This document shows, in pieces, positions 19,962-45,353 of a DNA stretch of 64,000 nt. Every line of letters starts with the position of its first letter. Within the stretch, counting starts at the first letter, position 1. The position numbers were made by a program, and so were the translations under genes. The notes beneath the pieces are model-generated. The model made no database searches. It was given only the letters and a program-made list of their open reading frames with translations, and was not told the DNA's origin. The stretch is from Edaphochlamys debaryana (Eukaryota > Chlorophyta > Chlorophyceae > Chlamydomonadales): NCBI GenBank assembly GCA_016858145.1, contig JAEHOE010000006.1:1302001-1366000 (forward strand). Reading direction: 5' to 3'.

Positions 19962-22388
19962 TCAGATGCTGCTGTACCGTTTGACGCCGACCCGCGTCAG
20001 TAGCTCCCGCTCGCGCTTGGTGTGGCTGAAGGCGCCCACGTAGGACATGAGCAGGAACAGCCCCGCCGCCAGCATCACCCAGTTGCCCACCTGCACCCCG
20101 ATCTGGGTTGGGCGTGTGGAGGGGGTCAGGGGGGTTTGCAGGCGTCAGGCGTGGCAGGGGCCGAGTGCACGGGTCATGGGGGTCAGCTCGGCAGGCAGGT
20201 GTTGAACCCGTTGCCATATGGCAAAAGCTGCTGGCGCAAACTTGCCATGTTATCGTAGGCGTCTTGGAGCATGCTTTGGGACTCCGTCAGCTTGTCCTGG
20301 TCACAGATGCAGGAGTCCTGGGCAGCGGGCAAGATCGGAAGGACGTAAGCTTCAACCGTAAGCTCTGGAACCCGAAGCCATCCAACCTTCCAACAGGACT
20401 GCAGGAGTCCTCGCCCCTGCATGCCCGGCCGCATCGCAACCCTCTGAACCCTGCGGACCTAATGTACGCTTCACAGGTCCAGTCACCCACAACTCCACGC
20501 AAGCCTCCGCCTCTCCTCTCCACTCCCTCCGCAACCTTACCCGCCACACACCCCCGGACCCCGCCCCCGCCCCTCCCCGCTCACGGTGTAGTCCACTGAG
20601 AGGAAGTTGACCATGCTCAGGTCCAGGCACTGCCCCGGGCAGGGCAGATTACGTGAGGGCAGCCACGTGGCGGGGCCGTACTTGACGATGGCGGCCAGGG
20701 TGCGGTCGCACGAGTCGCTGAGGCTCACGATGGAGCCCTGCCACAGCGTGTTGGCTGCGGGGCGGGAGGGTGCGGAGCTCGGATGGTGGAGCGGCAGCGC
20801 GAGGGCGGGGGGGTTGTGCGGTGCCAGGTGGTGGGGGTGCGGTAACCGTAAAGTGCGCGGGGCACCGGCCTGGGTTGCAGCCCAAGCTCGGCGCCTCTTC
20901 CTCCACCCCTGGCTCTCGGCAGGAGGCTGCCGGCGGCCCACCGGTCCAGCCCCGCCTCTGCCCGCCCCGACCCACCCTGCAGCAGGAAGACCAGCCAAAC
21001 CAGCATGCACCACCAGCATGTGATCCAGATGTACGTCAGCACCAGGAACGCCGTGGCGCCCTTGGCCGTCACGCCTGGGTTCGAGGCACGGAGGCGGGGG
21101 AAGGGAAAGAGCAAATGAGGTTGAGGGCGCCCAGAGAGCCAGGCTGTTAACAGGAAGGAGACAGGGAGCCGGCCCATTGAATTCAAGGCAGGATGGTGCG
21201 ATGGGGCTCATGATGCCCTGGAGTGGACGGCCCGAGTGGATTGGTAGGCGGCACGGGAACGCCTCCCACCTGTCGCGTCATGCGCTGCCTCAATGAACGA
21301 GCGCCAGAGACACATGACCTGCAGGGCGGGGCCGGCTCGGTGAGAATGGCAGCCGCACGTGTCCTGGCCCTCCATCAAGCCCTGGCCCTGCTCGGAGACG
21401 CGCCAGTGCACGCAGCGGAGACCAAGGCCGCCCTGCAGCCGCTTCAGGGACGCTGTACCCCGGCCCCCGGCCAAGGGCTCACGTAGATGATCATGATTAA
21501 TACCTGCACAGGGCGACGGAAGGGATAAGACTGGAGCCAGCACTGCATCAGCTGATCGGCCAAAGGATGGGGGGTCGTAGCTTGCTGTCCTCTGAGGCTG
21601 CCGTGTGTGCCCTCCACCTCTACCTGCCCTGGGGTCTGCGCGGCACCTGCCACAAGGACCCACCAGGTAAGCAATGGAGGTGCCCACGAGCGAGTCATTG
21701 AATCTGTTCAAGTCCGGTGCGTACGCGTCCATGTACGACACAGAGTCCTCCGTCTTGTTTACACTAGTCTTCGTGTAGTAGGCCCTGCGCCGGGGCGCGG
21801 GGTGAGTGTGGGCCAAGAGGGGTGTCAATACCCGAGCAGCTGAAGCCAGCTGAAGCGCAAGGGAGTAGGAGAGGCCTGAGTGCAAGGGGTTGGTGTGGGG
21901 CGGGGCTCCGTTGATGTAGAAAAGCACACACGTCCAAGATTAAGGAGCCATTGCTAGCTGCTAGCCGCGGCAGTGTGTGGAGTGCAGGCGGTCGGTGGGG
22001 GGGTTGCATTGGGGTGAGACACACACTCTGGGGTCCAAGGATACGGAGCTGTTGCTAGCTGACGGAAGGCGCCACGGTACTTACCACACGCCCGTCGCAG
22101 CTATCCCAAAGCACACAAAGACTGTAGCCAGCCATGGGACGTAGTAAGCACAGCCGCTGCGGGGGCAAGGGGTCGGGGCGACGGGTGGGGCAGCCAGGGG
22201 TCTGGTTCCGCGAAGGGTTGGTCACGCGTCACTCCGCATAGCCGCTGTCGCTTCTCCTGCAGACAGGATGCGCCCCTTAAGGAGCCCAGAGCTCTCATTC
22301 AGGCCAGCGGAAAGCCAATGCCCAGTCCAGCAATGTCCAGCAACGCCGTCGCCAAAGCCACTGACCGGTCTCTTGTGATGTTTGCCAT
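19962..22388 (-). CDS. Unrecognised four-transmembrane protein with Cys-rich loop
   Basis: Nine exons, 5' to 3': 22388-22366, 22156-22085, 21784-21664, 21503-21483, 21318-21270, 21074-20976, 20754-20585, 20317-20246, 20102-19962; 255 aa. I do not recognise the family. Four hydrophobic helices are visible: YYVPWLATVFVCFGI, SIAYLVLIMIIYVMCLW, a Trp-rich one around TYIWITCWWCMLVWLVFLL, and WVMLAAGLFLLMSYVG. Loop 1 has two N-glycosylation sequons (NKT, NDS). Loop 2 has six cysteines (SCD, PCPGQC, SCICD). Both loops would then face outward and the charged C-terminus (HTKRERELL) inward. The layout recalls tetraspanin or tweety-like proteins, but no signature was found. The penultimate exon needs a GC donor (ATG|GCAAGT) to avoid a stop, and one exon is only 21 nt. 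The start gives a short MANITRDR leader and was fixed by splice phase. Confidence 0.7.
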
Positions 22389-23019
22389 CCTTTATGTGGA
22401 TTAGGTGCGCTATCGGGTATACTCTCTTTGACTCGTGCGCAGAACTTTGACTAGAAACATTTCACGCAAACTAGCTATACAGGGGGTGGCAAAGCAGCTG
22501 GGAATACTCAATATGGGTAACGCGGGAAGCGGAGAGTGGGGACCGCAGAGCTTCGGTGGGCGCGTTGGGATCCAAAGACAGCCAAATCGCTTTCTGCACG
22601 CAGCGTGCAGAGCGGCAGACTCCCTTCACTGCCTGACAGTGAGACGATACAGCATACAGCACTGACGCGCATACAGAACTTCCCCAAACCAGAGCAGTGC
22701 GTCAGCAAAGGTTCCAATTTGCGCAAGCTCGCTTCTGAAAGGGCCGCACCAGGCGCGGAACTGTACAGCAATTCCTAGCTGCTGCCTGGTAGGAGGTCAT
22801 CGCATTTGGAGCGGTCAGCGACTGGGCGTCTGATGGCGGGAGGTGTCGCTGAGGTGCGCGTGCGACACGGCGTAGTGCTTCTGAACAGGCGCATAGGGGT
22901 GATGGGCTCGCCATTCCTGCCAGACCGATGAATGATTCGCGTGAAGCGCCGGTGTGTGGCCTGGGGAGCGTCTAGGGCCACGTCGTCTGCCCCGCCTCGG
23001 CCCACGCCACCAGCAGGAC
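22389..23019. other. Divergent promoter region
   Basis: This 631-bp gap separates the start codons of the - strand membrane-protein gene and the + strand WDR76-like gene. It must carry both promoters and 5' UTRs. No conserved element could be named. Confidence 0.6.
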
Positions 23020-26000
23020 ATGCCGACAGTCGAACCCGACGTGGATGCCCACGGCGGCAGCCCCGGCTCTGGCGGCGATGCGCCGTCGGTTGCCAAGCGC
23101 ACGTCACAGCGGCGGGGATCCGGGCCCAAGGCCACCGGGCTGCCCCCCCGCCCGCCCCCGCCACCACGGACTCGAGGAGGTGCCAAGCCCTCGCCAGCGC
23201 CCTCCCCTGCTAAGGCCAAGAAGCCCACCGCCGATCATGCAGCATCCGAAGGCGACGCGAGCGCAGACGAGGACGCAGCCAACGGCGAGGAAGACCTAGA
23301 CAAGTGCGCTGCGGGCAGATGGGGGCTGAGGGTGGCGCGCCGTAGTGTGGCGCTGGGGGGGGCTGTCCACCTCCTCTGCTGCCGCGCCCCACAAGAGTAG
23401 CGGCGTCTTCGCCTGCGGCTCAGAGCCATGCGCAACCCTTGACCCCCGCGCGTGGTTGCTTCGCCTGTGCCCCTGCCGCCCCACGCACAGGGAGCGGGCG
23501 GCGCTGATGGAGCGGAACCGGCTGATGCTGCTGCAGCTGCAGATCCCGGGGCTGGTCACGGGGCTGGCGGCGGAGGCCAAGGCCAAGGGCGGCAGCCGGG
23601 CGGACAGCGCCGGCTCGGGCTCTAGCCGGCGCCAGGCCAGTCAGCGCGGCGTGGGGAGCAAGCGGTGGGTGAAGCTGGGGGGCCTGACGAGGTCCTCGAT
23701 GCCTTTGGGAGCGCCGTAGCGTCGACGCACGTCACACCGCACCAGAGCACTGCGGGCCAGCCGCTCACCGGGGCTTGCCTTGGTGTCTCTGGACTGGAGG
23801 AGGGCTACGTGGGGGTGCAGGCAAGGGGCTCTATCGAGCGCTGGTGGAGGCAGCCTTCCCCCCTCCACCTAACCCGCTCCCATGCCTCCGACACTTCCAG
23901 GGCTCGCGATGGCTCCGCCGACGCCGAGCCTGCCCCCCGGCGCGTGTCCCTGCGCGTTCGCGGCGTCAAGGCCGACGAGGCCCTGGCTGCGGGCATCGAC
24001 TCGGAGACCGCGGGCGGAGTGACGCTGGTGGCGGGGGCCCGGGCCAAGGCGGCGGCCACCGGGGGCGACCGGGAGGCGGCGGAGGCGGAGGACGCGGCCA
24101 AGAACAAGCCCCTGCATGTACAGGGTGGGGCGGGGCGGGGCGGGGAGCCCTGGTGTGGCATGGGAGCGGGGATGCGGGGGTGTATATGGGGGCCACGGGT
24201 TGACGGTTAAGCACGGCGGGGTGCATAACCCAGCGCAGGCCAGGTGGCGGGAGGGCGGTGGGTGGGGCAAGCCAACCTAGCCTGCCCCACAGCCAACCTG
24301 CCAGCCCGTCTGTCGGCCGACACTCTTCCCTCCATCCACCGTCCGCAGACGAGCTGCCGTTTCGCAGCGAGAACGGCGAGGAGGCCTCCGACGCCGCCTT
24401 CCTGTCCGGCCTGCAGCGCCAAGTCGCGGGCGCGGGGCGAAAGGGCGGCGAGGCGGAGGCGGAGGAGCCGCCGGTGAAGGGGCACCCGGCGGGCGGTCGA
24501 GATGTGGCGAGGCTAGGGCTGAAGGAGAAGGACGTGGCAAAGGTGAGCGGCGGAGGCGCGCCGGGGGCGGAGCGTGTGCGTGCTAGTTCGACCGAACTCG
24601 CGAGGGCGACGGCGAGGCCGGAAGCTTCGAAGCAGTTTGACGCAGTTAACTTGGTACTTTTTCGCGACAATGCTACGTCGCACGGCGACACCTGGCGCGG
24701 ACGCTCGCACTGTTCGTCAGGCCGAGCTAACGCCGAGCGCGCAAAAGAGGAATTCGTAGCGAAGACGACGTTCCTGCCAATCCGACACGTTGAATGAACT
24801 GCAACGATCATTGAGCAACAGCGAGCTTTGCTTAGCGAGCCGCGGCCAATTTTGTCGCCGTGTAGTACGTCCGCCACGCGGTTGGTACGATCGTCGTCTG
24901 GGAAAGTATTAGTCATTCGGTACTCGTTCTTCAGTCCCTCGGCCACCTCTGCTACCACTCGACCTAGCCACGGCCAGGAGGCCACGGCCAGCGACCCCAC
25001 GGCCTCACACCTGGGGTCAATACAACCTGGTGGTGGTGGCCACCTCCTTAGGGGTGGCGGAGCCCGGCCCCACGGGCCTCAACCCACATGCGCCCCCCCG
25101 CGCCCCCACCCCACCCGCCGCCCGCCTCACTCAACCCCTCTCCAGCCCTCCCTCCCGCCCCTCCTGGCCGCACCACCCGCCCCCAGGTCACCAAGGACGG
25201 CACCACGCAGCTCGCCTGGCTGCCCGGCTCCCAGCGCCTGCTGCTGGCGGCGGCGGACAAGCGGGGACACGTGGCACTATGGGACGTGGACGCTGGGGAG
25301 GGCAGCGCGGCGGCGGAGACCGACGGTCGGTGCGGGGTGGCACGGGGCTGCTGCTTTGCACGCTACGCAGAGCTCTGCAGTGCTACGGTGCTGCCTCGTT
25401 AACCCTCAAGCCCAGTGGCCAGGGTCTAGAGGGGTGCTTCCGGGGTAACCACCGGGACGTTGCGGATTATGCTCGCGGGCGGGCAACAAACTCCACTCTT
25501 CCGCGCCTCCCGCCCGCGCCCCAGGCGTGCTCATGTTCCGTACGCACGACGACCACGTGAGCGGCATGCGCTGGCTTGGGCCTGAGGCGGCCGTGGGGGC
25601 GCACCGCCTCATCACCGCCTCCTACGACGGCTCGCTCAGGTGAGCACCTCTCCCACCACACCTCCACGCCTGCTCTCGTACGACACCCCTCACGTGGCAC
25701 CTCACCGCATCCGTACGGCGCAGGGCCCTGGACCTGGGCGGCGCGGGCACGTGGCTGCGCCTGCCCCTGCCGGCCGCGGCCTCGGGGGCGGGCGCCGATA
25801 CGCCTGAGTGGTCAGCCCTGGAGGTGGCAGCGGACGGCCGCACGGCGCTCCTGGGGGACCCCCAGGGAGGCCTCACGCTGCTGGACCTGCGGGCGCCGGC
25901 GGCGGTGGAGGCAGTGAAGGACGAAGGCGCGGAGGCGCCGTCCGCGGCCGCCCGGGCGGGGGTGGTGGAGGCTGCCGGCAGCGCGACCATCAGCGACAGG

Positions 26001-28148
26001 TGGGAAGGCAGGGACGTGGGAGAGCAAGGCCGTTCCAGGGACGGGCGGTGGCGTCTCTGTGCCGTGGCGGGGCGCTGCAGCGCCTATAGGCCGAGACACG
26101 CTTATTGGGAGCATTTGGCGGTAGCATGTACCGTATCACCGGTCGAAGGGCCCAAGCCCGCATACCACAGGAACCCGCTCACAAGTTCTTGATGTCTTTC
26201 GATGCGTGAAATATGGGACACACAGCCGCAGCGCGACGCAGGGAACAGCACAGCATAGGTTATGATGGCGCAAGACGCCGTCGCCAGTCCCCCCTCGCGC
26301 TCTTCAGTTTCCGCGCGCGTTCCGACCTGTCCTGACGCCGGCGGCGGGGCCTGTCACGCACCTGTCCGGCCCGGTAGGTATTGTGCGATGGCTGCCCACC
26401 TAAGGTACACGTTCGGGGGAGCGTGGGGACAGCGTTTTAGGAAGCATTTGGACAGCGTTTTAGCCTGAGCCATTGCCCTGACATCGCGAAGATGTTGGCG
26501 TCTGTCTTGCCGCTTTCGCCGACAATGCTGTCATGAAAGCAAGCAAAGCTATGACGGCAAAAGCGTGTGCTCGGAAAGAGCCGGGTGCAGACGGCCCCAA
26601 CCCGCCCATCCAGCGATGGGACCGAGCTCACTTGTTGCCCTGCTGGTGCCTGAAGCAGAGTGTATACTCCTCTTGGGGAGTCCACGCGGCCTTTGTGCGC
26701 CACGGCTCCGGGGCCCCGGGCTGCTTGGGCACTTGCTGGAACAGAGCCGGGTCTGGTGTTGGGTCCTCGGGCGCAGCCTCGTCAGGCTCCTTCAGCGAGG
26801 CTCTTGCGAAGCCAGAGAGAGCGACCTCGCTGTGTTGCCGGCCTTCAGAACGCCAGACGACCCAAGTCCCTCGCCTCTTCGCTTGCTTACACACACCACC
26901 CCACCGCCTGCCCCGCCCCCGCAGGAAGGTCAACTGCCTGCACCTGGAGCCCTCCGGGGGCCACCTGCTGGCCGCCGCCTCCACGGACGCAGCCGTGCGG
27001 GTGTGGGACCTGCGCCGCCTGCGGGGGGGCGGCAGCGGGTCGGGGCACGGCGGCGCGGCCAAGGCGCTGAGTGTGCTGCAGCACGGGGCCAGCTGCCACG
27101 CGGCCTTCTGGGCGCACGACGGGTCCAAGGTGGGCAGGCGGCGCGTGGAGGGTGCTGGACGGGGGCCGCCGCGACGGGGTTAGCCGAGAATAGAGTATTC
27201 ACAAGTAGCTGAGCTGAGCTGTACTGGCCTGACCAGCAGATTGGACCTGAGACTGATAAGCAATGGAAAAGTGGTTGGGGCTGTGGCATGTCACCACGGT
27301 CGTTGGAGCCTTGTTCAGCAGCATGCCTCCTTGTGAAGGACGGCAATGCACGTTCGCACCCCTCGACCCTCCACACACCCGCAGAGGCTTCTGTCTACCT
27401 CGTTCGACGACACCCTCCGGCTGTGGGCCGACCCCGCGGGGCCCTCCGCCGCCGACGGCAGCGGCCTCACACAGGCGCTGTCCATGCCCCACAACAACCA
27501 GACGGGGCGCTGGGTGGTGCCCTTCAGGTGCGCCGGCCCCACGCTGGGTTCCTGACAAGTTCAGACCATTCCTGAGCCCCGGCTCCCAGATCACCTCCCG
27601 CCGCTGCCCGCTGGAACCCCACGGCCCCTTACACCCACTACCTTACCCGGCTGCTGCTTCCCCAGGGCTGTCTGGAGCGCCGCCTGCGACGCAGCGCTGT
27701 GTGGCAACATGAAGCGGGGCCTAGACGTCATCCACCTGGGAACGGGCGCGGGCGGGTCGGGCAGCAGCAAGTCCCCCAAGAAGGCGGACAAGGCGGCAGC
27801 CGATGCGCCCGGCAAGGTGAGAGACACTGACAACATGGGGCTCGGGGCCGTAGCTGGGCCTTGGCGTGGTGTTCTGACGAGGTGCAGCGCAAGTAACGTA
27901 CCGTCTGGGCTAGCCCATGTCTGGCGGGGCGGTTGTCGGTGAGGGACCACAACTGCTCCACCCACCCATGCCTTCGTTGCAGCTGTGGCCTGACTCCCTA
28001 CTTGCATCACCCGCGCCCCCCTCCCCAGCTGCTTGCGGCCCTCTCCTCGGACTTCCTGACCGCCATCCCAAGCCGAGCCGCGCCCCACCCCACCCTCCCC
28101 GTGGTGGTCGCCTCGACCAGCAGCGGCCGGTGCCATGTGTTCCGCTGA
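23020..28148 (+). CDS. WDR76: WD-repeat protein of the WDR76/CMR1 family
   Basis: Eleven exons: 23020-23303, 23491-23664, 23901-24124, 24349-24542, 25187-25325, 25525-25639, 25724-25999, 26925-27129, 27385-27527, 27666-27816, 28029-28148; 674 aa. WDR76/CMR1 proteins bind damaged DNA or chromatin and act in replication stress responses, in the nucleus. The first 90 residues are basic, Pro/Ser-rich and disordered. Then comes the family's ERAALMERNRLMLLQL helix, the RRVSLRVRGV stretch, and from about residue 293 the propeller: RGHVALWDVD, HRLITASYDGSLR, AASTDAAVRVWDLRR, LLSTSFDDTLRLW and a final GRCHVF blade. The combination of the N-terminal helix with DKRGHVALWD separates it from generic WD proteins. 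The intron after 25999 (925 bp) holds an inverted Myb gene fragment, and the one after 24542 (644 bp) is also enlarged. Confidence 0.87.
24570..25020. other. AT-richer block in WDR76 intron 4
   Basis: This part of the 644-bp intron is visibly less GC-rich than the flanks and shares nothing with the coding sequence. An insertion is possible, but I could not define terminal repeats or a target duplication. Confidence 0.3.
26131..26843 (-). pseudogene. Inverted truncated copy of the Myb gene 5' part
   Basis: On - this stretch matches 29847-30540 (+) almost base for base, from the Myb 5' UTR through coding exons 1-3 and their introns; homology stops before exon 4. It is broken: the ATG is AGG, the Leu codon before GNK is missing, exon 3 has lost its AG acceptor (GCAG became GCAT) and AAT is changed to AAA. 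A 23-bp tandem duplication lies in the copied first intron. Because introns are kept, it arose at the DNA level and not from mRNA. It sits entirely inside the WDR76-like intron 26000-26924, antisense to that transcript. Confidence 0.9.
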
Positions 28149-29897
28149 GCACATCGGCCGGCTGACAAGGGCAGGGGTGGCACGCTCGTACGGCTCCTCG
28201 ATGACCTCGAGGGCTTACAATCGTGGCTATGACTGAACTGCTCACAGAGAAGGCTTCGTGCAGCTGTGGGCGCTGCCAAGCGGGCGCAGAGCCGGCCGGT
28301 CAGGCCCTGTAGCAACTTGGGGGATTGCCCTGTTGACAAGGGATGGATGGTGCCGCATGCGTTTCTCTACATGGCATGGAGCGGCGTGCGGGCCAAATAG
28401 CATCGGCCTGACTACCTGACGAACAGCACCTAGGTCTGGGTGGCATACAGGACACGCCGATCTCGTCAAGTCTGAAGGCAGTAGCTACGCATGCCTGGAG
28501 CATGTACACCAGGGCGCGCGTGACGCTGCTGTCGAGTTGAGCCCACTGACCGATGCCACCATGCCAAGCGGCTAGAGCATATCGGCGGGTCGGGGCGGTC
28601 CCCGGCTGGCCCCGTGCCTGCATTGCAGCGTTAGAGAGCTGTAATGCGTTCTTCGTGGTGAAGAGGCCCAACCGATTTGTATGCGTGGCTTGGGTCGCGG
28701 CGTTGCGGGCTGTGTGTAGGGCGGTGCCGTATGAAGAGGCAGAAGAGGGGTGCCGTGTGAGGAGGGTGCCGTGCGGCGAGCGGGCAGACGAGCTGCCGGC
28801 CCCACTACCCCCACATGAGGGGCTTCTGTGCTCGCAGGGGCCGTGCAGCGTAGTCCGGACGACGACAAAGGGGGATGCAGGTGATCGCAAACAGGCTTCA
28901 CAACGCAACAGAGAGATGGAGGAGACCGGGCGACGGGCAGCACAAGTAACCGCGTGGGGGATCCCAGGGGCCTAATAACGCAAGTACGCAACGCGTCGGA
29001 CGTGCCACTCATCTTTCCTATGCCATCTTGCGGTGCCGAGGCCCCCCACACGAGGGGCAGAGAGTTTCAAAGAGCCTCAGCTTTAGTCATCAAGCTGAAG
29101 CAAGCACCCGCCCTCTGCCCCCCTTGGTACCCCCCCGGTGCTCAGCAGCGGCTAGAGCCTGACGCAGAAGCCTCCGCTGTCTCACCCGGCCCGCGCAGGG
29201 ATCTACGGCATGGCCGATTTGAGCCCGGAGGCCTGGAGTGGTGCCGTGGCGGCGTGGGCGACACGGCAGGGGGGACACGGCAGGGGGGGCCAGCGGGGGC
29301 AGCGGGGAGTCGAACGCTGTTGGGCTAGAGTTGAGGCACACGACTGATGCTTGCTCTCCTTGGCCACATAGAACTCAGCGCCACACGTAGCACTGTCATC
29401 CAGCGGTGGTCTGCACCTGGCGCGCCTGCAACGTCTCTACGGCGTGCATTGCCGTCGGTCCCCGTGACTGTCGCTTCCGGTTCTTCCGGCTCTGGAGGTG
29501 CGTTATGAAGGGCAAGCTCATCATCACGAGACCCTTAACGCAGTCGACACCGACGAAAGGCCGAGCAAGTCGGTGTTCTCCCGTAGAGCCGATGCACGCA
29601 AGAATGCATCAAGCTGAAAACTTGATAGTAGGAGACACAGCCGAGTATTTAGCATGTGCAGCGCGGGCTAACGACTCCGCGGGTCAAGGCCACTCCGCAT
29701 GTGCACACTCACCTAGGGCAACGACCAGACCAAAGCAATCGCGATGCAGTGAAGAAGAATAGACAATACACCATAGCACACGACGGGATACTAGACTAGA
29801 CACGGTCGGGTTCCGTGCCATGCCACTTCAGGGGCGTTGCTAGCGCGGCCGGCAACACAGCGAGGTCGCTCTCTCTGCCCTCGCGAGAGCCTCGCTG
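28149..29897. other. WDR76 3' UTR and Myb promoter region
   Basis: The 3' UTR ends near 28660. The remaining 1.2 kb has no supportable exon. A short G-rich direct repeat (GACACGGCAGGGGGG unit) lies near 29258-29290, and the duplicated segment shared with the WDR76 intron begins at 29847, within the Myb 5' UTR. Confidence 0.5.
28640..28644 (+). terminator. Probable poly(A) signal of the WDR76-like gene
   Basis: TGTAA 492 bp downstream of the stop codon. Confidence 0.55.
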
Positions 29898-30540
29898 ATG
29901 GAGCCTGACGAGGCTGCGCCCGAGGACCCAACACCGGACCCGGCTCTGTTCCAGCAAGTGCCCAAGCAGCCCGGGGCCCCAGAGCCGTGGCGCACAAAGG
30001 CCGCGTGGACTCCCCAAGAGGAGTATACACTCTGCTTCAGGCACCAGCAGCTGGGCAACAAGTGAGCTCGGTCCCATCGCTGGATGGGCGGGTTGGGGCC
30101 GTCTGCACCCGGCTCTTTCCGAGCACACGCTTTTGCCATCATAGCTTTGCTTGCTTTCATGACAGCATTGTCGGCGAAAGCGGCAAGACATACGCCAACA
30201 TCTTCGCGGTGTCAGGGCAATGGCTCAGGCTAAAACGCTGTCCCCACGCTCCCCCGAACGTGTTCCTTAGGTGGGCAGCCATCGCACAATACCTACCGGG
30301 CCGGACAGGTGCGTGACAGGCCCCGCCGCCGGCGTCAGGACAGGTCGGAACGCGCGCGGAAACTGAAGAGCGCGAGGGGGGACTGGCGACGGCGTCTTGC
30401 GCCATCATAACCTATGCTGTGCTGTTCCCTGCGTCACGCTGCGGCTGCGTGTCCCATATTTCACGCAGAGAATGACATCAAGAACTTGTGAGCGGGTTCC
30501 TGTGGTATGCGGGCTTGGGGCTTTCGACCGGTGACACGGT
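29847..30540 (+). repeat. Parent copy of the Myb 5' inverted duplication
   Basis: This segment carries intact Myb exons 1-3 and is matched by the inverted copy at 26131-26843. It is the ancestral copy, because only here do the start codon, splice sites and downstream exons remain functional. Confidence 0.88.
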
Positions 30541-33296
30541 TACGCTTTCCCCCCATCCGCCACGCGCATAACCGCTACGCTCGCCTCACCTCCTTTCTTG
30601 CCCCGTCCCCGTCGAGCAGGTGGCACTCCACCCTCCGCGCCAAGTCAGCATGCAGGCGCAGCTCGCTTCTATTCAACTACACACGTGCCGTCAAGGACAA
30701 CGTAAGGATCCTTGCATGCTTCTCGGGGAGCGTCCCTCTTAGCTGGATACGCACGCGCGTGATGCCCCGTAGTTTGGTTTGCAGTATGGTGCCAGGTTCT
30801 TGCTCATTGTCGATAATCCTGCGTGGTGACATGCAAAATGCACGTGCCCCCTGCCCCCCCTGCGTGCCAGTGCGACGACCCCGCTGCACGCAAGGCCGCA
30901 TTCGCGCGCACAGAGGCTGCAGAGCTGCAGCGGATAAAGGAGGGTTCTGCATCCGGCAGTGGCCTCGGCGGGGCGGAGGGGGAGGCATCGAGGCAAGGAG
31001 CAGGCGGCAGCGCGGGTGAGCTCACACCCAGCTTGCTGTGGGACGTTACGCCGCCGCCCTGCCATGAGCATAGGTCCCGGTTACGTTCACGGTTATGCTG
31101 TCTACCGAGCCGACGCCGGGCGCTCGGCGCGTTGCCTCGGCTGCTGAGGCAACTTACTGCTGACTGGGGCAAAAGCGCTGCATGATTCCAACTTGTAGGT
31201 CTGGGTTACACGGAAGTCCTTAGAGTCTCCTACCCACCCACTGCGCACATGCAGGACCCACATCGGCCGACGCAGATGCGCCTGGCGCCACTGCCCCAGT
31301 GCAGCCCTCCAGCACGCCCAGTGAAGCGGCGCCCTCGAGTCCGCCCTTGGAGGAACCGAGCAGAAGCAGGGTTCGCGGCGCCTCCCAAGACCGCGGCGAG
31401 GCAGAACTCGGAGTGGACGACGCTACCGGCGTCCTCCCTCCTGCAGCAAGACGCCGCCCTCTCAGCCGGACAATCTCAATGCCGCAGCCTGCGCCCTCCC
31501 TCCGCGTGGCCGCAGCCGCGGCCGGCACCTCGGGTCGCAGGGGAGGGCACTCGGGCAGTGGCGCCGCCCAGCCCGGGCTGCACGAGGAATCTCCGCACGT
31601 GAGCACCGGGGGCGACGGCATGAGCAGCGGCGAGGAAAGCGGCGACGACGTACCTCTAGCCGCCCTGGCCGAGGCAGTCAACTCGCCGGGCGGGGCGCGG
31701 CGCACATCGGGCGCTGGCGGTGGTGGTGGCGGTGGCAGCGGCAGTGGCAGTGGCCGTGCGGCTGCCCAGCGGCAGCAGACGCACCCCCGAGCGCGGCAGT
31801 CCCTGCGGCGGCGACAGACCATCGGCGTGTTTGGCTCGGCTGGGAGCCCGGCTGGCGGCGCGCCCGCATCAGCAGGCGGCTCGGGCTCCGGCGCCGGGAC
31901 GGACGTGGGCGGCGGCGACATGGACCCCGCCGATGGCCTGCATTCCGCCGAGGGGGCGCCCAACAGCCAGGCCGCAACACACGGCAGCATCAGCGAGGGC
32001 GCTCCCACGGACATGGACGTGGACGTGCCACCATCCGCCTCGGACCCTGGCCCGTCGTCGGGGAGCGGCGTGGGCACGCTCTGGCCCACAGCGCGCTCCG
32101 CCGCCGCCACGGCCATGCCCCCGCCGCCCCCGCCGTTGTTTGAGCCCAAGCGCGAGCCCGGTACCGCTGCTGGCGCCCGGGCGGAACCCGGGGCCCCCGG
32201 CGGCGTGGTGAGGCTGGAGCAGGTGGACCCCCTGCGCGAGGCGGAGCAGCAGATGGCGGCCAGGGCGGAGGCTGCGCACGCGCAGCAGCAGCAACAGCAA
32301 CAGCAACAACAACAACAGCAGCAGCGCTCACAGCTGCAGCAGCAGCAGCAGCAACAGCAGCTGCAGCAACAGCTGCGGCCCTATCCTCAGCACCAACAGC
32401 AGTTACCAAGTGAGGATGGGTGGTGGGGCGGGTGGGCGGTGCGTGGAAGGCAGAGAGCACATGGCCATCCTCGTGTTCCAGTCAGCTTCGGTACACGGAC
32501 CTTGCCTGTGCTGCTGTCGTGCAACACTCCAACCGACCCTGCCCCGTTTCGGTTCTGCTACGCAGGCTGGGGCTTCATGCAGGGTGGCGCGGTGCAGCCT
32601 CCGCGGCACGCCCAGTCCGCGGAGGCCTCCTTCGCGGCGCCAAGCGGCCCCTCCTCAACCGGGGCTCTGCCGTCCGCGGTCCAGGGCATGAGCATGGGCG
32701 GGGGCATCTGGGCACCGCAGCCCACGTCATGGGACTCTGCGCGCGCGCGAAACTCGAGCGCCGGAGGCCCGCAGCCCTTCCGGGCGGGCGGCGGCTGGGC
32801 GCAGCCTCAGCCTCAGCCCCAGCCGCCGCCTCCCACATCAGCCCAGCAGACGTGGCAGGTCGTGAGTACCCGCGGGGGGCCACCCATGCACTCTGCGTCC
32901 GTGCGGCCCGAGAGCTACTCAGCGCCGCTGCAGTTCATGGGCCACCGCGGTCCGCCCCCCAACGTCGGTACGGCGCTGAGCACCAGCACCACCGCCGCCA
33001 CGGCCCTTGGACCCGATCCTTTCAGCCCGTGGGCCTCGGGGCCGGGTGCCTCCGATTCGCGCCCCATGCAGCAGCAGCAGCAGCAGCCCTACGGCTTTGC
33101 GGCGCCCGCGCTCTCGGCGCCACTGGGCCGTGGCGCCCCGCGCGTGAGCCTGGGCACGGCCCTCGCCCTCGGCATGCCGAGCCTCCAGCAGCCCACAATG
33201 ACGGACGCCGTCGTTGTGATGGGGCTCGGGGACGAGGACATCGCCATGTGCCTGGAGGGTCTGGAGGCGCCCCCGCCAGGGCGGCTGGGAGGCTGA
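29898..33296 (+). CDS. Single-repeat Myb domain protein with poly-Gln region
   Basis: Seven exons: 29898-30061, 30271-30308, 30469-30487, 30620-30701, 30871-31015, 31255-32409, 32566-33296; 777 aa. It is a probable nuclear DNA-binding transcription factor. The Myb repeat spans four exons: Trp37, Trp56 and Trp75 are spaced 19 apart, with AAWTPQEEYTL, LGNKWAAIAQYLPGRTEN and DIKNLWHSTLRAK. This is an R3-like repeat; no second repeat is seen upstream or downstream. The rest is low-complexity: Gly/Ser/Ala, acidic patches, Gln-rich runs around residues 490-530, then Pro/Gln/Gly to the end. The last intron (156 bp, 32410-32565) is a multiple of three without stops, so its retention would add 52 residues. 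The third exon is only 19 nt. The start is the first ATG in frame, with a short acidic leader. Confidence 0.85.
32281..32403 (+). repeat. CAG/CAA repeat coding poly-Gln
   Basis: Mixed CAG/CAA codons give interrupted glutamine runs inside the sixth Myb exon. The mixed codons argue for a selected protein tract and against a pure microsatellite expansion. Confidence 0.85.
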
Positions 33297-35523
33297 TGCC
33301 GAGCACGGGTGCGTTGGCGGGGGAGCGGCGCCTGCGCGGCAGCCTACGGGAGCGTGCGGGGAGCCAGCGTTCTCAGGCGCAGGGCTTAACGGCGGGTGGC
33401 GGTTGGGAGGAGGGACGGTGGGGATACACCTAGATACATATAGCAAGCCTCTTTAGGTCATACGTAGCTCGGCATATGGTTGGGGTGGGCACGAGCGGGT
33501 TTTTGATTTGGGGGCTGAGTTAGTTTGGATATCCGATGCGCATAGATGTGGTACACTGACGCAGTTGGGCGGCGGACCGATGGCTGCTCAACTGCTTCTG
33601 CTTTCTTTGATTCAAGGCAGAAGTTGTCTGGCCTGGAAACGCGCGAGGCTTAGCTGCGGCCCGTAGGCACAGAACCTTTCCCAGGAACGGTAACCCCGGT
33701 ATCATGTCAGAAGGCAGCGAGGAGGGCGGGCGTTACGCGTGGCTGCTTCTCCGGTTGTTGGATACCAGTGGATGTCGTGCCATGCCGTTTGGCGGCATGC
33801 CGGGAGCATAGAATTGAGCAACACCGAGTGGCTAGCGGCTTGTCGCCGCAGGGTTGCCTTATGAACCACACTGGCAAGTTGGGCCAGCAAAGCATGCTCC
33901 ACAGAGAATGTTGCATGGCTCTGCAGTGCAACAGCAACGGGACATTGTTCAATGATCTCGCCTTGGTGCGCTGGCGCGCAGAATATCAAAGCAGGGAAGC
34001 TGATTAGGCTAGGGCGTGCGAGCGCTGAACAGGGCATGGGCTTTTCGCCTGGTGCGCCCCCTGGAGAACTTCGGATGCTTGGGTCAGGCAGGGCACTGTG
34101 GTCGTAGGGTGGGCGCCTGCAGGGAGGGCTCGCGCTGCCGCCTGTTTTGTGCTTATCTTTGGCGTTGGGAGGCCGCGGAGCTGCCCATATCAAGACGCGC
34201 TGCTATTAATGAATGAACGCTGCTTCTTGTTTACTCCTACTTAGGAGTTGCGCTGGTCCTATATCTGTGGGGAGTGGAGCTCGACGCACAGGGTGCTGCC
34301 GCCTCGAGCACGGGCGAGGCTGCTGCAGGGTTGATGGGCGGATTGCTTATTGCAGGGTTGCAGCGGTCTGGGGCTCACACCGCTGGCGCCCGAATGTGAG
34401 GCTGCTCCCTCTGAAGGGAGGAGGCCCAGCAGGGTCGCACCCTTGCTGCCGGTGCCACTGCGGACTGGTTGGCCTTGCTGGTATTCTGTGATGTGCGGTG
34501 GGTTCTGTGGATCGGGCCAGCACGCCAACATAATGGAGAGGACGCTGGCCACACCTCGCTATATCCGCGGGGTGATGCGGGCATTTGTGTCTTCCAAGGC
34601 GAATCGGCTCCTAGCCTGAACATCTTAAATGCATTAATCGGGGGGATGAGCCGTATGTCGTACATGTTACGGCTGGCTGGTGCGGGGAGGGTGTCCGTTT
34701 TCCCGCTGGCCAGCCACCCTTGTCGTGTGGGCGGGAACTAAATCGGTGTGCGGTTACGGGGATGTGTATCGGTACTTTCCAAGCTAAGCTACAGCTGCTC
34801 GGGGAGGGGACGAACCGACCAAGCCAATGCGGGAAGGCAAGACCGAGCGGCGGTATGAATATCCCCTCATCTGGAGGGGCGAGAGGTTCGGGTGTGCCAG
34901 TGGGCGCAGAGTTAAGCAACGAATCCTGCTATTTACGTGCTCCTGCTGGTTCGCAATCACGTCGCACGAAAGCGGAGATGGTGCTGTCCTTGGGCCATGC
35001 GCTTCGTGCATTACGGTGTTTGCGCAGGTCTTCTGAAATTTAATTTACAGGGCTTCACCCGTCGCAGCTGAGGGTTTCCTGCCTTCGGGCAGCGACCTGT
35101 ATCTTGTACGGGAGGCCGTTCGTGACACGTGTGGGGATTGCGGTCTTAGCAAGCGCTCTGGGAGCCTTGGGGTGGCGGCTTTGGACGCAGGTGGGGCCAC
35201 CAACGCAGAGGTACTCTTGTTCTGCTACGGGCCGAACGCCTGCGATGGCGGATGGGGGCTTTGCGTAATACAGCGGCAGCGCAACAAATGAGTGGCTGGT
35301 GCTGTCATTGATCACGCGGTGTAACCAACTAGCGTGACAAGGAGACGGGGAAGAGGCTAGACAAGGGTGGCTGCCTGAAGGCAGGAAGAGGGTTTAGCCA
35401 CTTGGCGGCCCTCATTCGCTGTGGGGCAGGCCCGGGGACGGAGGGCATAGCCTCCATGCAGTGCCGGGGACGGCAGCCTGGGGACTCCGGGGATGGCAGG
35501 CGGGTGAAGAGAGAGAGAGAGAG

Positions 35524-38127: not shown

Positions 38128-40634
38128 ATGTCGGCCACAGGGCTGCCCGCGCTTTCCTGCCGAGCCGAGGGAAGCGCCCACGCGTGCATTCCCTGTCCCG
38201 ACGAGCTCAGCTGCCACCCGCAGCCCTGCCTGCCGACCATGCGCACCTCAGATGGCAGCAGCTGCGCGGCCAACAGCGACCCACTGCCCCCGCCGCTGAC
38301 GCTGAAGGCGGCGGGCGCAAGCATGTGGCAGAGCCCCGCTCTTGAAAGCCCGAACCAGAGGCCCGTCACGCGCCGCCTGTTCGTCCGCAACGGCAGCGAT
38401 GTGGCCGGGCCCCTCGCTGCTGACATCTCGACCCGTGGCAGCAGGGCCAACGATTCCCCAATGTCCGAGCCCGCCCCGAGCAGCCGTAGCCCGGCACACA
38501 TTCTCATGATGGCGGGAGATGTGAGCGGCGCCTGCACAGCCCAGGCCTCCAACTTGCGGCCCCGGCCCCTCGAGGTGTGCCTGTCCGCGCCGCCCAAGGC
38601 GGCAGAGCTGGCGGCCTCGGTCTGCGCCACGGAGTCACCCCGCCACCCCGCCGTGGACTCGCCCTACGGCACGTCCAGACCGTTGATGTGGGACCCCTCA
38701 CCCTCGACCGCATCCACACCCCGCGGCGGCTCCAACCACCACTGCCCGCAGCAGCCGCAGCATGGGTGTGAATCGGATGCCGACGGAGCGGAGCGGGGTA
38801 CGCTGCTGGCCATGTCAAGGACCATCCCGCCCACGATGCGGCGGACCGTGTGGTCCATCGACGATTTTGGCATCACCCGCCGCCTCTTTAAGGGCTCTCG
38901 GACCGCCGTGTACAAGTGCGTGGGTGGGGGAGCCGCAGGCTGCAGGCCTGACCTGCCAGGGGAGCCCAAGTCCGCCAGCAAAAGATTGCGGCACGCTTGA
39001 CACCATGCTGCCTTCCAGTGCCGTGCCGCTGCGTGCCGCCTGCCTACATCATGACACGCTCTGCTGCCCACTCACTCCCGACACGCAGGGCCACGTGCAA
39101 GTACTCCGGAATGCCAGTAGCCCTCAAGGTGGGTCGGGGAGGGGACCTGAGAGCTCCATGCTTACATGCACCCCGACATCCCCTCGCCAGCATTGCTTGG
39201 CCGCCAGCGCCTGGACCCCTTTCGCCCGAGCAGCATGACGAGTGAACCATGCCAAGCCCCTGCCTCCAGCGTTGCTCAGATGCCTAACGCGGAGTTGCTG
39301 CTTGCCCAATGCCCATTTGCTGTCACTCCCGCGCAGGTGTACTTCCTGTCCCGCATTCCAGTCAACACGCTGCACCAGGTCGTCCGCGAGATCAGCATCC
39401 ACGTGGGCCTCGGCCACCCCAGCGTGCTGGGCCTGTACGCCGCGTTCCAGGTGCGGGTTAGCACACGCTTTGGATAGAACAGCGGTGTTGTGCTGCTGCA
39501 ATCTAGGGCCTGCACCCTGCAGCTCTCTCCATGCACTCCTGATGTACCTGATGTACCGCCCGCAGGACTCCAAGCGCCTGGTGCTGGTGACGGAGCTGGC
39601 GGCGCGAGGGGATCTGTACAACATTCACTGCACCCTGCAGCGCTGCATGAGCGAGGAGCAGCTCCGTGCCCTGGTGCTGGCGCCCCTGCTGGACGCGCTG
39701 AGCTACCTGCACGCGCGCGGCATCTGCCACCGCGACATCAAGCCCGAGAACCTGCTCTTCACCGCGGACTGGGGCCTCCGCCTGGCGGACTTCGGTGGGT
39801 GCGCGGGCGGCTGGGCGGCAGGAGTGCCAGTGCCGTGGTTTAGGTCCGCCGCGTAGCATGCGGGGACGGCGAGTCCGAGAAGCTGGAGGCTGTTGGGGAC
39901 TGAGGCATGGCGGTCCCCGCACACAACTGGCGTGCTCCTCAGAAACCTGAACCCACGATCCCGCATGTCTGACCCTCTACCTCCTCTTTCTCGCCGCAGG
40001 CGTGTCTATCAACCTGTTCGAGGAGAGGGCAGTCACGCGTGCCGGTACGGCGGACTACATGGTGAGTTGCGAGGCCCCAGGCACCTGCGTCACACCCGCC
40101 TGCCGCGGCCCGTGACGGCTTCCCACACCCTCTCTACCCCGCCGCCGCAGGCCCCCGAGGTGGAGCGCTGCCCGCTCAAGGCCCGCCCCAGCGACAACAA
40201 GGGCAACGCAGGCATTGCCTACACCACGGCAGCGGTCAGCCACAGGGCCAGGGGCTCGTACCATGGGATGTGGGGTGCGTCCCCAGGGAAGCAAGGGTGT
40301 CCTGTCTCCAGGCTAGGCGGGGCACCATGACGCTGCCTCCTGCCTGAATCTTTCGGCCTGGATCCCCTCTTCCGCTCAGGACGTGTGGTCCGTGGGCGTG
40401 CTGGCGTACGAGCTGCTGGTGGGCTTCCCACCCGTGGTCACCACCTCCGCTGGGGCGGGCGTGCAGGGCTTCGACAACGCGCACCTCTCCTTCCCCGCCT
40501 CCGTCTCCACCGCCGCTCGGGACTTCATCGCATCCGCCCTTGCCCCGTATCCTGAAGACCGACCAACCGCTCGGGAGCTGAAGGCCCACCCTTGGCTGGC
40601 CTCGACCGGAAGGTCGAGCCCCGACGACTGCTAG
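38128..40634 (+). CDS. Aurora-like protein kinase, copy A
   Basis: Seven exons: 38128-38915, 39089-39128, 39337-39450, 39566-39794, 40000-40061, 40151-40234, 40380-40634; 523 aa. The first 240 residues are Ser/Pro-rich and disordered. The kinase domain starts at Trp242 ([12 protein letters not shown]), as in aurora kinases, and continues with PVALK (Lys276), [35 protein letters not shown] and [13 protein letters not shown]. The glycine loop is degenerate ([11 protein letters not shown] in place of GxGxxG). A 22-residue insert follows APEVER before [13 protein letters not shown]. The catalytic Lys, HRD and DFG are all present, so it may be active despite the loop. It has a tandem paralogue 2.4 kb downstream with the same intron positions. 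Aurora-type kinases act in mitosis and flagellar disassembly; the role here is inferred only. Confidence 0.85.
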
Positions 40635-43011: not shown

Positions 43012-45353
43012 ATGGACCTTTCCGCAAAGACCGTCAGGCCAGTGCCTAGCCTTCGGCGTGCCTTGGGGCTCAGCTCTGTAGCGCCAAATCTGCCAATCCT
43101 CAGAGGCCGTTCTGAGGGCGAAGCTGAGACCGAGCCATCTCGCCGACCGTGGGCGCTAGGGGCAGGAGTAGGCCGACGCAGTCTTCCTCCCCAGGAGGCG
43201 CCAGTGATCGTGTCTGTATCCATGCGCGACAGTGGCGACGTCGCGCGCTCAAGTTGCGATGGCGCCTACGCGGCGAACAGCTGCGCACAGCGCGACTGCT
43301 CCACAACAGCGCCATCGGTAACTACACCGACCGCGACCATGCTACCGCAACGGGCAGCCTCGCGGTCTCTGGGCCGCTGGGGTTCGTTGCTCAAGGGCCT
43401 CGTCACGATGGCCAAGCGCGCCACCGACACACCTCGCGGGAAGGCCCTGGCTACGGATGCTTGCTCCGGCCTTTGCCCCCACGCTCAACCCGGCACTGGG
43501 GACGCACAAACCCGTCAGCAGTCGCCGAGCGCCCCGCCCACCCCGCCTGGCAAACCGCTCGCATACGGCTCCTCAAGCGCTCAACGGCTGCTGGCGGCAA
43601 GCCCCTGCATCCCGCCCGCCATGCTGCGGAAGGATTGGAGCCTGGATGACTACGCCGTTCGCGCCCGCCTGTACAAGGGGACAATGTCTGCAGTCTACCG
43701 GGTAGGACCGGGTGCGCCAGGGTCAGTCGCATACCGTACATCCCTTCACGCTCAGAGTCAGGTTCCGGGAGCCGAGGTTCTGCGCGGGTCTAGGATGGAA
43801 GCGCTTTCCTTCCGCCCGCGTCCTCACGTCAGCCCTTCCGCTCCGTACACGGCCGCCCCTCTCAGGCGCGGTGCCTTCTGTCCGGGCTGCCGGTGGCGCT
43901 GAAGATCTACTTTAAACAGGTGCGAACAAAGGGTGCAATGGTGCTGCGCCAGCGTGCTGCCCCTCGGTGCCTAGGCCGCCGACTGTAAGCCTCCAGGCGC
44001 AGCGGGCTGCCCTGCTCTCCCGGGGATGTGAGCTTCTTACCGTACTCCCAGTTATGCGGTCTGACGCTTCGACTCTTTGCCCCGCACTCAATCCCCCAGC
44101 GGGTGCCGGACAACGTTGTGCACCAGGTGATGCGGGAGGTGGCCATCCACCTGCAGGCCAGCAGCGCACGCAACGCGCTGCAGCTCTACGCCGCCTTCCA
44201 GGTGCGCTTGTGCATTGCGTGGTGTTGGCAGCCGGGCCGTGCAGCTGTCTGGGCCTGTCTGGGCTGCGCTGTCGTAAGCTGGCTGGGCGCTGCACTTCAG
44301 CATCCCTGCATGGCCGCGCCGCTGAGCAGCGAGCACCTTGCCCGCGCAAGTCCTCTGTGTTGATTGACTGGGTTCCCCATGCGCCCTCCACCGCAGACTG
44401 AGGAGCTGCTGGTGCTGGTGATGGAGCTCGCCCCTCGCGGCAGCCTGGAGGCCGTGTGCCAGCAAGGCACCCCCAGTGGGCGGCTGAGCGAGGAGCAGCT
44501 CCGTGCCCTGGTGCTGGCGCCCCTGCTGGACGCGCTGAGCTACCTGCACGCGCGCGGCATCTGCCACCGCGACATCAAGCCCGAGAACCTGCTCTTCACC
44601 GCGGACTGGGGCCTCCGCCTGGCGGACTTCGGTGGGTTGGGATGCCCTGTTGGGGTACCCTTTCCGCCTTCGACGCAACATTTCTTGCCTTCTACCCCCT
44701 TCTCTCTCCAACAGGTGTGTCCATCAACCTGCTTCACGAGCGTGCCGTTACGCGTGCCGGAACGGCGGACTACATGGTGAGTTGCGCTGCCCCAGGCACC
44801 TGCGCCATACCCGCCTGCCGCGGCCCGTGACGGCTTCCCACACCCTCTACCCCGCCGCTGCAGGCCCCTGAGGTGGAGCGCTGCCCGCTCAAGGCCCGCC
44901 CCAGCGACAACAAGGACAACGCAGGCATTGCCTACACCACGGCAGCGGTGAGCCACAGGGCCAGGGGGCCAAAACAAGGGTTGTGAAGTCCCGGTGTGTC
45001 CCAATGAGGTTGTTGTGTCTCCAGGCTAGACGTGGCACCTTGACGCTGCCTCTTAATTAACTCCCTCGGCCTCGACCCCCTCCTCCGGTCAGGATGTGTG
45101 GTCCGTGGGCGTGCTGGCGTACGAGCTGCTGGTGGGCTTTCCACCCGTGGTCACCACCTCCGCGGGGGCGGGCGTGCAGGGCTTCGACAACGCGCACCTC
45201 TCCTTCCCCGCCTCCGTCTCCGCCGCCGCAAGGGACTTCATATCGTGGGCCCTGGCGCTGCGGCCCGAGGAGAGGCCCACCGTGCACCAGCTCAAGTCCC
45301 ATCCCTGGCTGAAGGCTGCAACGGCGGCAGCTTCATTGCAGTCGCTGCTCTGA
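43012..45353 (+). CDS. Aurora-like protein kinase, copy B
   Basis: Seven exons: 43012-43701, 43866-43919, 44100-44201, 44397-44631, 44715-44776, 44864-44947, 45093-45353; 495 aa. The architecture matches copy A: a disordered N-terminus of about 205 residues, then WSLDDYAVRARL from Trp209, [23 protein letters not shown] and [13 protein letters not shown]. The glycine loop is again degenerate (LYKGTMSAVYR). The N-lobe and the linker (SLEAVCQQGTPSGR) differ strongly from copy A, while exons 4, 6 and 7 are nearly identical, including 153 nt with no difference. ATG 43012 is the first in-frame ATG; the frame stays open a further 147 nt upstream without one. The C-terminal end differs (KSHPWLKAATAAASLQSLL). 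Confidence 0.85.

Follow-up and report, generated by a model that had tools for sequence, protein, structure and literature searches.

What does an inverted piece of one gene represent when it lies inside an intron of a neighbouring gene, by which route did it arrive there, and does it act on the gene from which it came? These questions are raised by a locus of the green alga Edaphochlamys debaryana, which we analysed within a stretch of 64,000 nucleotides of genomic DNA (hereafter the window). Here, the 5′ end of a Myb-domain gene is found a second time, partial and reversed, in intron 7 of the adjoining WD40-repeat gene. A first-pass annotation had described the two inverted copies, had taken them to be the outcome of a recent event and had proposed that the intronic copy is a built-in source of antisense RNA against the Myb gene.

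BLAST self-comparison of the window matched positions 26130-26843 (− strand), the intronic copy, with positions 29847-30540 (+ strand), the source arm in the 5′ part of the Myb gene, as an inverted pair (E = 0). Together with pairwise alignment and the gene models this bears out the earlier description of inverted copies that hold the Myb 5′ stretch, exons 1-3 and introns. The two arms share 691 aligned columns without gaps, 18 of which are substitutions (10 of them transitions), corresponding to 97.4% identity; the BLAST identity is lower, at 93.9%, since gap columns are counted in it. The arms also differ by two indels, a 3-base GCT that the intronic copy lacks and 23 bases that are extra in it (26441-26463, − strand; pairwise alignment). 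The latter consist of a 14-base direct repeat of the adjoining sequence plus 9 bases, and may have been either gained by the intronic copy or lost by intron 1 of the Myb gene. The match consists of Myb sequence throughout: 51 bases 5′ of the ATG, the first three exons, the first two introns and the first 53 bases of intron 3. Within the 64-kb window this is the sole inverted pair of at least 150 bp at E < 1e-20. A genome-wide search with the arm sequence, covering 141,892,200 bases in 502 contigs and giving repeat counts that are lower bounds, returned at least two places, i.e., both arms (two of two candidates scored).

The gene that hosts the insertion (23020-28148, + strand) has 11 coding exons and was delimited by spliced translation, a protein match and a WD40 profile. 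Its spliced translation of 674 aa is 100% identical to the public Edaphochlamys debaryana protein HYH03_002596. Pfam returned eight hits on this product, those above the cut-off being to the general WD40 repeat only, and the 26 matches to solved structures were all to WD40 proteins with other names. The host had been called WDR76 at first pass; the WD40 repeat stands, scoring over the Pfam cut-off, and the WDR76 name is weak, a single distant relative carrying it (P0015; 32% identity at 50% query coverage), so the 'DNA-damage-type' role that had been attached to the gene is weak too. Intron 7 (26000-26924, + strand) is set by exon ends at 25999 and 26925 with GT..AG borders, and measures 925 nt including the insertion and about 211 nt without the inserted Myb copy. 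In the gene model the WD40 coding sequence ends at 28148, upstream of the Myb arm.

The Myb-domain gene itself (29898-33296, + strand; gene model and Pfam) is modelled with seven coding exons encoding 777 aa, and its product has one Myb repeat at residues 36-78. Relatives were found in Volvox africanus and Pleodorina starrii, with 67% identity each and query coverages of 60% and 58%, respectively, and a motif in the C-terminal region of the model is, by eye, common to both of these relatives. Of 7988 public-protein candidates scored, none reached E ≤ 0.001 against residues 80-777, and outside the conserved N-terminus and the C-terminal motif the model is predicted by this analysis alone. The four public-protein hits, from a search of lengths 0.55-1.75 x 777 aa, did not include an E. 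debaryana Myb. Within that length range the public annotation seems to be without this Myb as modelled, and the published annotation may have missed, split or merged the gene.

As to which of the two copies is the original, the WD40 and Myb relatives are numbered consecutively in V. africanus (VaNZ11_003447 and VaNZ11_003446, respectively) and likewise in P. starrii (PLESTB_001012300 and PLESTB_001012200), hence the Myb locus looks ancestral. This numbering, which comes from two species only and from gene numbers rather than DNA, suggests that the WD40 and Myb genes were already neighbours before the event. In V. reticuliferus the Myb and WD40 hits are numbered far apart in differently named gene sets (Vretimale_11058 and Vretifemale_10709), and the Myb hit is possibly a paralogue. 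Over the searched length range no Myb hit was obtained for Chlamydomonas incerta, C. reinhardtii, Gonium, Astrephomene, V. carteri or Tetrabaena, all of which have a WD40 hit.

The differences between the arms point in the same direction. The first-pass annotation had stated that the intronic copy has lost its ATG, one codon and a splice acceptor, and each of these losses was confirmed: the Myb start codon ATG reads AAG, the Leu52 codon is gone in frame, and the acceptor G of exon 3 (30468) is a T, with base 30469 altered too. Furthermore, Asn69 is replaced by Lys. Both Leu52 and Asn69 are invariant in a four-sequence alignment of the Myb protein, and the loss of the former and the replacement of the latter are therefore assigned to the intronic copy. 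The start-codon and acceptor changes, which would break the gene, are assumed to be derived in the intronic copy as well, their polarity being set without relatives. Two more differences in exon 1 fall at third positions and are synonymous and unpolarised. From these observations we infer that copying ran from the Myb gene into the WD40 intron.

Very probably, then, the intronic copy is a recent, short-span, inverted and partial duplication of the Myb gene, now persisting in intron 7 as a neutrally decaying relic. The locus holds two inverted copies of high identity, close together and comprising part of one gene with its introns, as a local inverted partial duplication does. A reversed copy of the Myb 5′ end would have been placed some 3 kb upstream, within intron 7 of the adjoining WD40 gene, the likely cause being template switching or templated repair in the course of replication or double-strand-break repair. 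Once there, the copy would leave with the spliced intron and encode nothing, and, presuming that it lacks a function, would decay neutrally. No target-site duplication of four or more bases was found near the two junctions, and no match between the two ends of the insert was seen by eye. An insert made entirely of Myb sequence, with no target-site duplication and with ends unlike each other, would fit short-distance template switching or templated repair. The 97.4% identity and the gene models support the earlier proposal that the copy is recent and inverted and sits antisense within an intron of the adjoining gene, and the origin of the copy is ordinary. Young gene duplicates of short span (median 1.4 kb), inverted and adjacent, have been reported in the worm Caenorhabditis elegans (PMC2728529). 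The Myb copy resembles the duplicates described there in being short (0.7 kb), adjacent, inverted, partial and derived from a single gene, and differs from them in that it lies inside an intron of the neighbour and encodes no intact product.

Divergence between the arms amounts to 5/218 coding and 13/473 non-coding sites (Fisher p = 0.80), a comparison with little power, and on this sequence comparison the intronic copy would seem to bear no sign of constraint; two synonymous exonic differences and an in-frame codon loss form a pattern that constraint would leave too. The differences are spread somewhat unevenly (P = 0.027 for the variance of the gaps; longest run of identity 171, P = 0.11), hence gene conversion between the arms is a possibility. 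A point mutation rate of 11.56e-10 per site per generation has been given for C. incerta (PMC8383909). Dividing the distance of 0.0265 by twice this rate yields, if the copy is neutral, an age of about 11 million generations, a rough figure that borrows the rate of another species. Biased C-to-T decay, as might come from methylation of inverted repeats, was also considered and set aside, because with Myb as the ancestor only three C>T and three G>A changes occur among the 18 substitutions, and because CpG counts are similar, with 62 in the Myb arm and 64 in the intronic copy.

A different reading is that the intronic copy is a working source of antisense RNA or siRNAs, in which case Dicer-like enzymes would cut the duplex formed by the WD40 pre-mRNA and the Myb mRNA and so damp Myb whenever the WD40 gene is active. 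We regard this as unlikely, and less likely again that the locus is a newborn cis-encoded silencing link, in which antisense from the WD40 intron would pair with the Myb transcript as long double-stranded RNA and one gene would lower the other; both gradings express judgement and are not computed figures. In its favour, the gene models predict that WD40 RNA, before splicing, would contain sequence complementary to Myb exons 1-3, and of the 2365 21-mers in the predicted Myb mRNA, 118 find a perfect complement within the intron. Piwi-domain matches occur at two loci of the genome (three of four matches over the cut-off), as do RNase III matches, whose identity as Dicer is putative. In Chlamydomonas, intron-derived miRNAs have been described that are made independently of splicing (PMC4817775), and in rice, pseudogenes close to their parents were reported to be enriched among siRNA-producing pairs (PMC2708354). 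Against it, the copy is without sign of constraint, and its two arms sit in two separate gene models, so a self-hairpin would require read-through past the end of the WD40 gene.

Whether the WD40 transcript ends ahead of the Myb arm can be judged from candidate poly(A) signals, UGUAA having been described as the major such signal in Chlamydomonas (PMC4025486). A motif search placed a TGTAA at 28640-28644 (+ strand), where it could part the WD40 and Myb transcripts, and it is the only one on that strand from the WD40 stop codon to the Myb ATG. Given 18 occurrences on the same strand in 64 kb, about 0.5 would be expected by chance in this stretch, and the motif is therefore weak evidence of a transcript end. 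It is also an unreliable guide at this locus, since TGTAA is absent from the 1.1 kb past the Myb stop codon.

Published systems help to place the antisense reading. Pseudogene-derived antisense siRNAs in rice, for which mouse oocytes are cited in the same source, likewise involve a decayed copy near an intact parent, in an orientation able to give antisense RNA (PMC2708354); the difference is that small RNAs were sequenced there, whereas the Myb copy is known from DNA alone. Similarly, the inverted-duplication origin proposed for plant miRNA genes (PMC5511227) and the intronic miRNAs of Chlamydomonas (PMC4817775) share with this locus an inverted gene copy that sits in an intron and is complementary to its gene, but at this locus one arm only lies in the intron, so the arms would probably not share a precursor. 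A scan of positions 22000-34000 against Rfam returned no families at the curated cut-offs. By title, no study of small-RNA sequencing in E. debaryana was found, nor, by title or the start of the abstract, any literature on the locus, in a search that was thin on subscription journals. The regulatory reading of the intronic copy is thus testable and, at present, unsupported. If small RNAs do arise from the copy, it would be a young, natural, two-gene case of the beginning of an antisense regulator, in which a distance of 3 kb and a divergence of 2.6% separate the copy from its parent. If it is a relic, it is a further example of a short inverted duplication that sets pieces of a gene antisense in the intron of a neighbour, and matters little.

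The RNase III and Piwi searches also gave an observation of their own. On contig C5, an RNase III match (106952-107161, − strand) and a Piwi match (120001-120201, + strand) are separated by about 13 kb and lie on opposite strands, and are possibly a linked Dicer-like/Argonaute pair.

Transposons are known to capture gene fragments in plants, and a transposable element could in that way have taken up a Myb fragment and carried it into the WD40 intron. Of the E. debaryana assembly, 14.11% is transposon and satellite sequence (PMC8226300, Table 1). Even so, we hold such a capture to be very improbable and have set it aside: the insert is purely Myb sequence from end to end, the junctions show neither a target-site duplication nor matching ends, and the arm sequence gave two places (at least two) in the genome search. 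Chimeric long reads are a possible source of inverted repeats. That the pair is an artefact of assembly or library is nonetheless hardly credible, given the 2.6% substitutions and two indels between the arms, unlike a palindromic read artefact, their unrelated flanks and 3-kb spacer, the 40-49x PacBio coverage with Illumina correction given for the assemblies of three species (PMC8226300), and the public protein HYH03_002596, which is consistent with splicing across intron 7.

For the short-span inverted duplication that we favour, the frequency of such pairs in this genome was gauged from 200 kb of contig C25 and 40 kb of contig C13, a small and non-random sample of 240 kb picked around Myb hits. 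At the thresholds used for the window (≥150 bp, E < 1e-20), the C25 stretch contained two inverted pairs and the C13 stretch none. The first C25 pair has arms of 3.1 kb with many partial matches elsewhere (at least 55; 40 of 162 candidates were scored). The second (553416-553817 and 555713-556136) has arms of 402 and 424 bp with 92% identity, 1.9 kb apart, and was found at two places in the genome search (at least two). These counts suggest, and do no more than suggest, that two-copy inverted pairs are not rare in the E. debaryana genome. The right arm of the second C25 pair ends approximately 0.4 kb upstream of the point where another Myb-like gene, by eye one with two Myb repeats, has its first ATG; we treat this adjacency as coincidence combined with the choice of region.

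Two further repeats came to light. The window also has a direct repeat pair (39648-40598 and 44485-45311; about 4.1-4.7 kb apart) in which 153 bases at 100% identity lie near about 640 bases at 84%, an abrupt step that hints at local gene conversion. On contig C25, a tandem array occupies 411389-427138, some 16 kb of the sampled stretch, with a period of ~1.14 kb and a similarity of about 98-99% between units.
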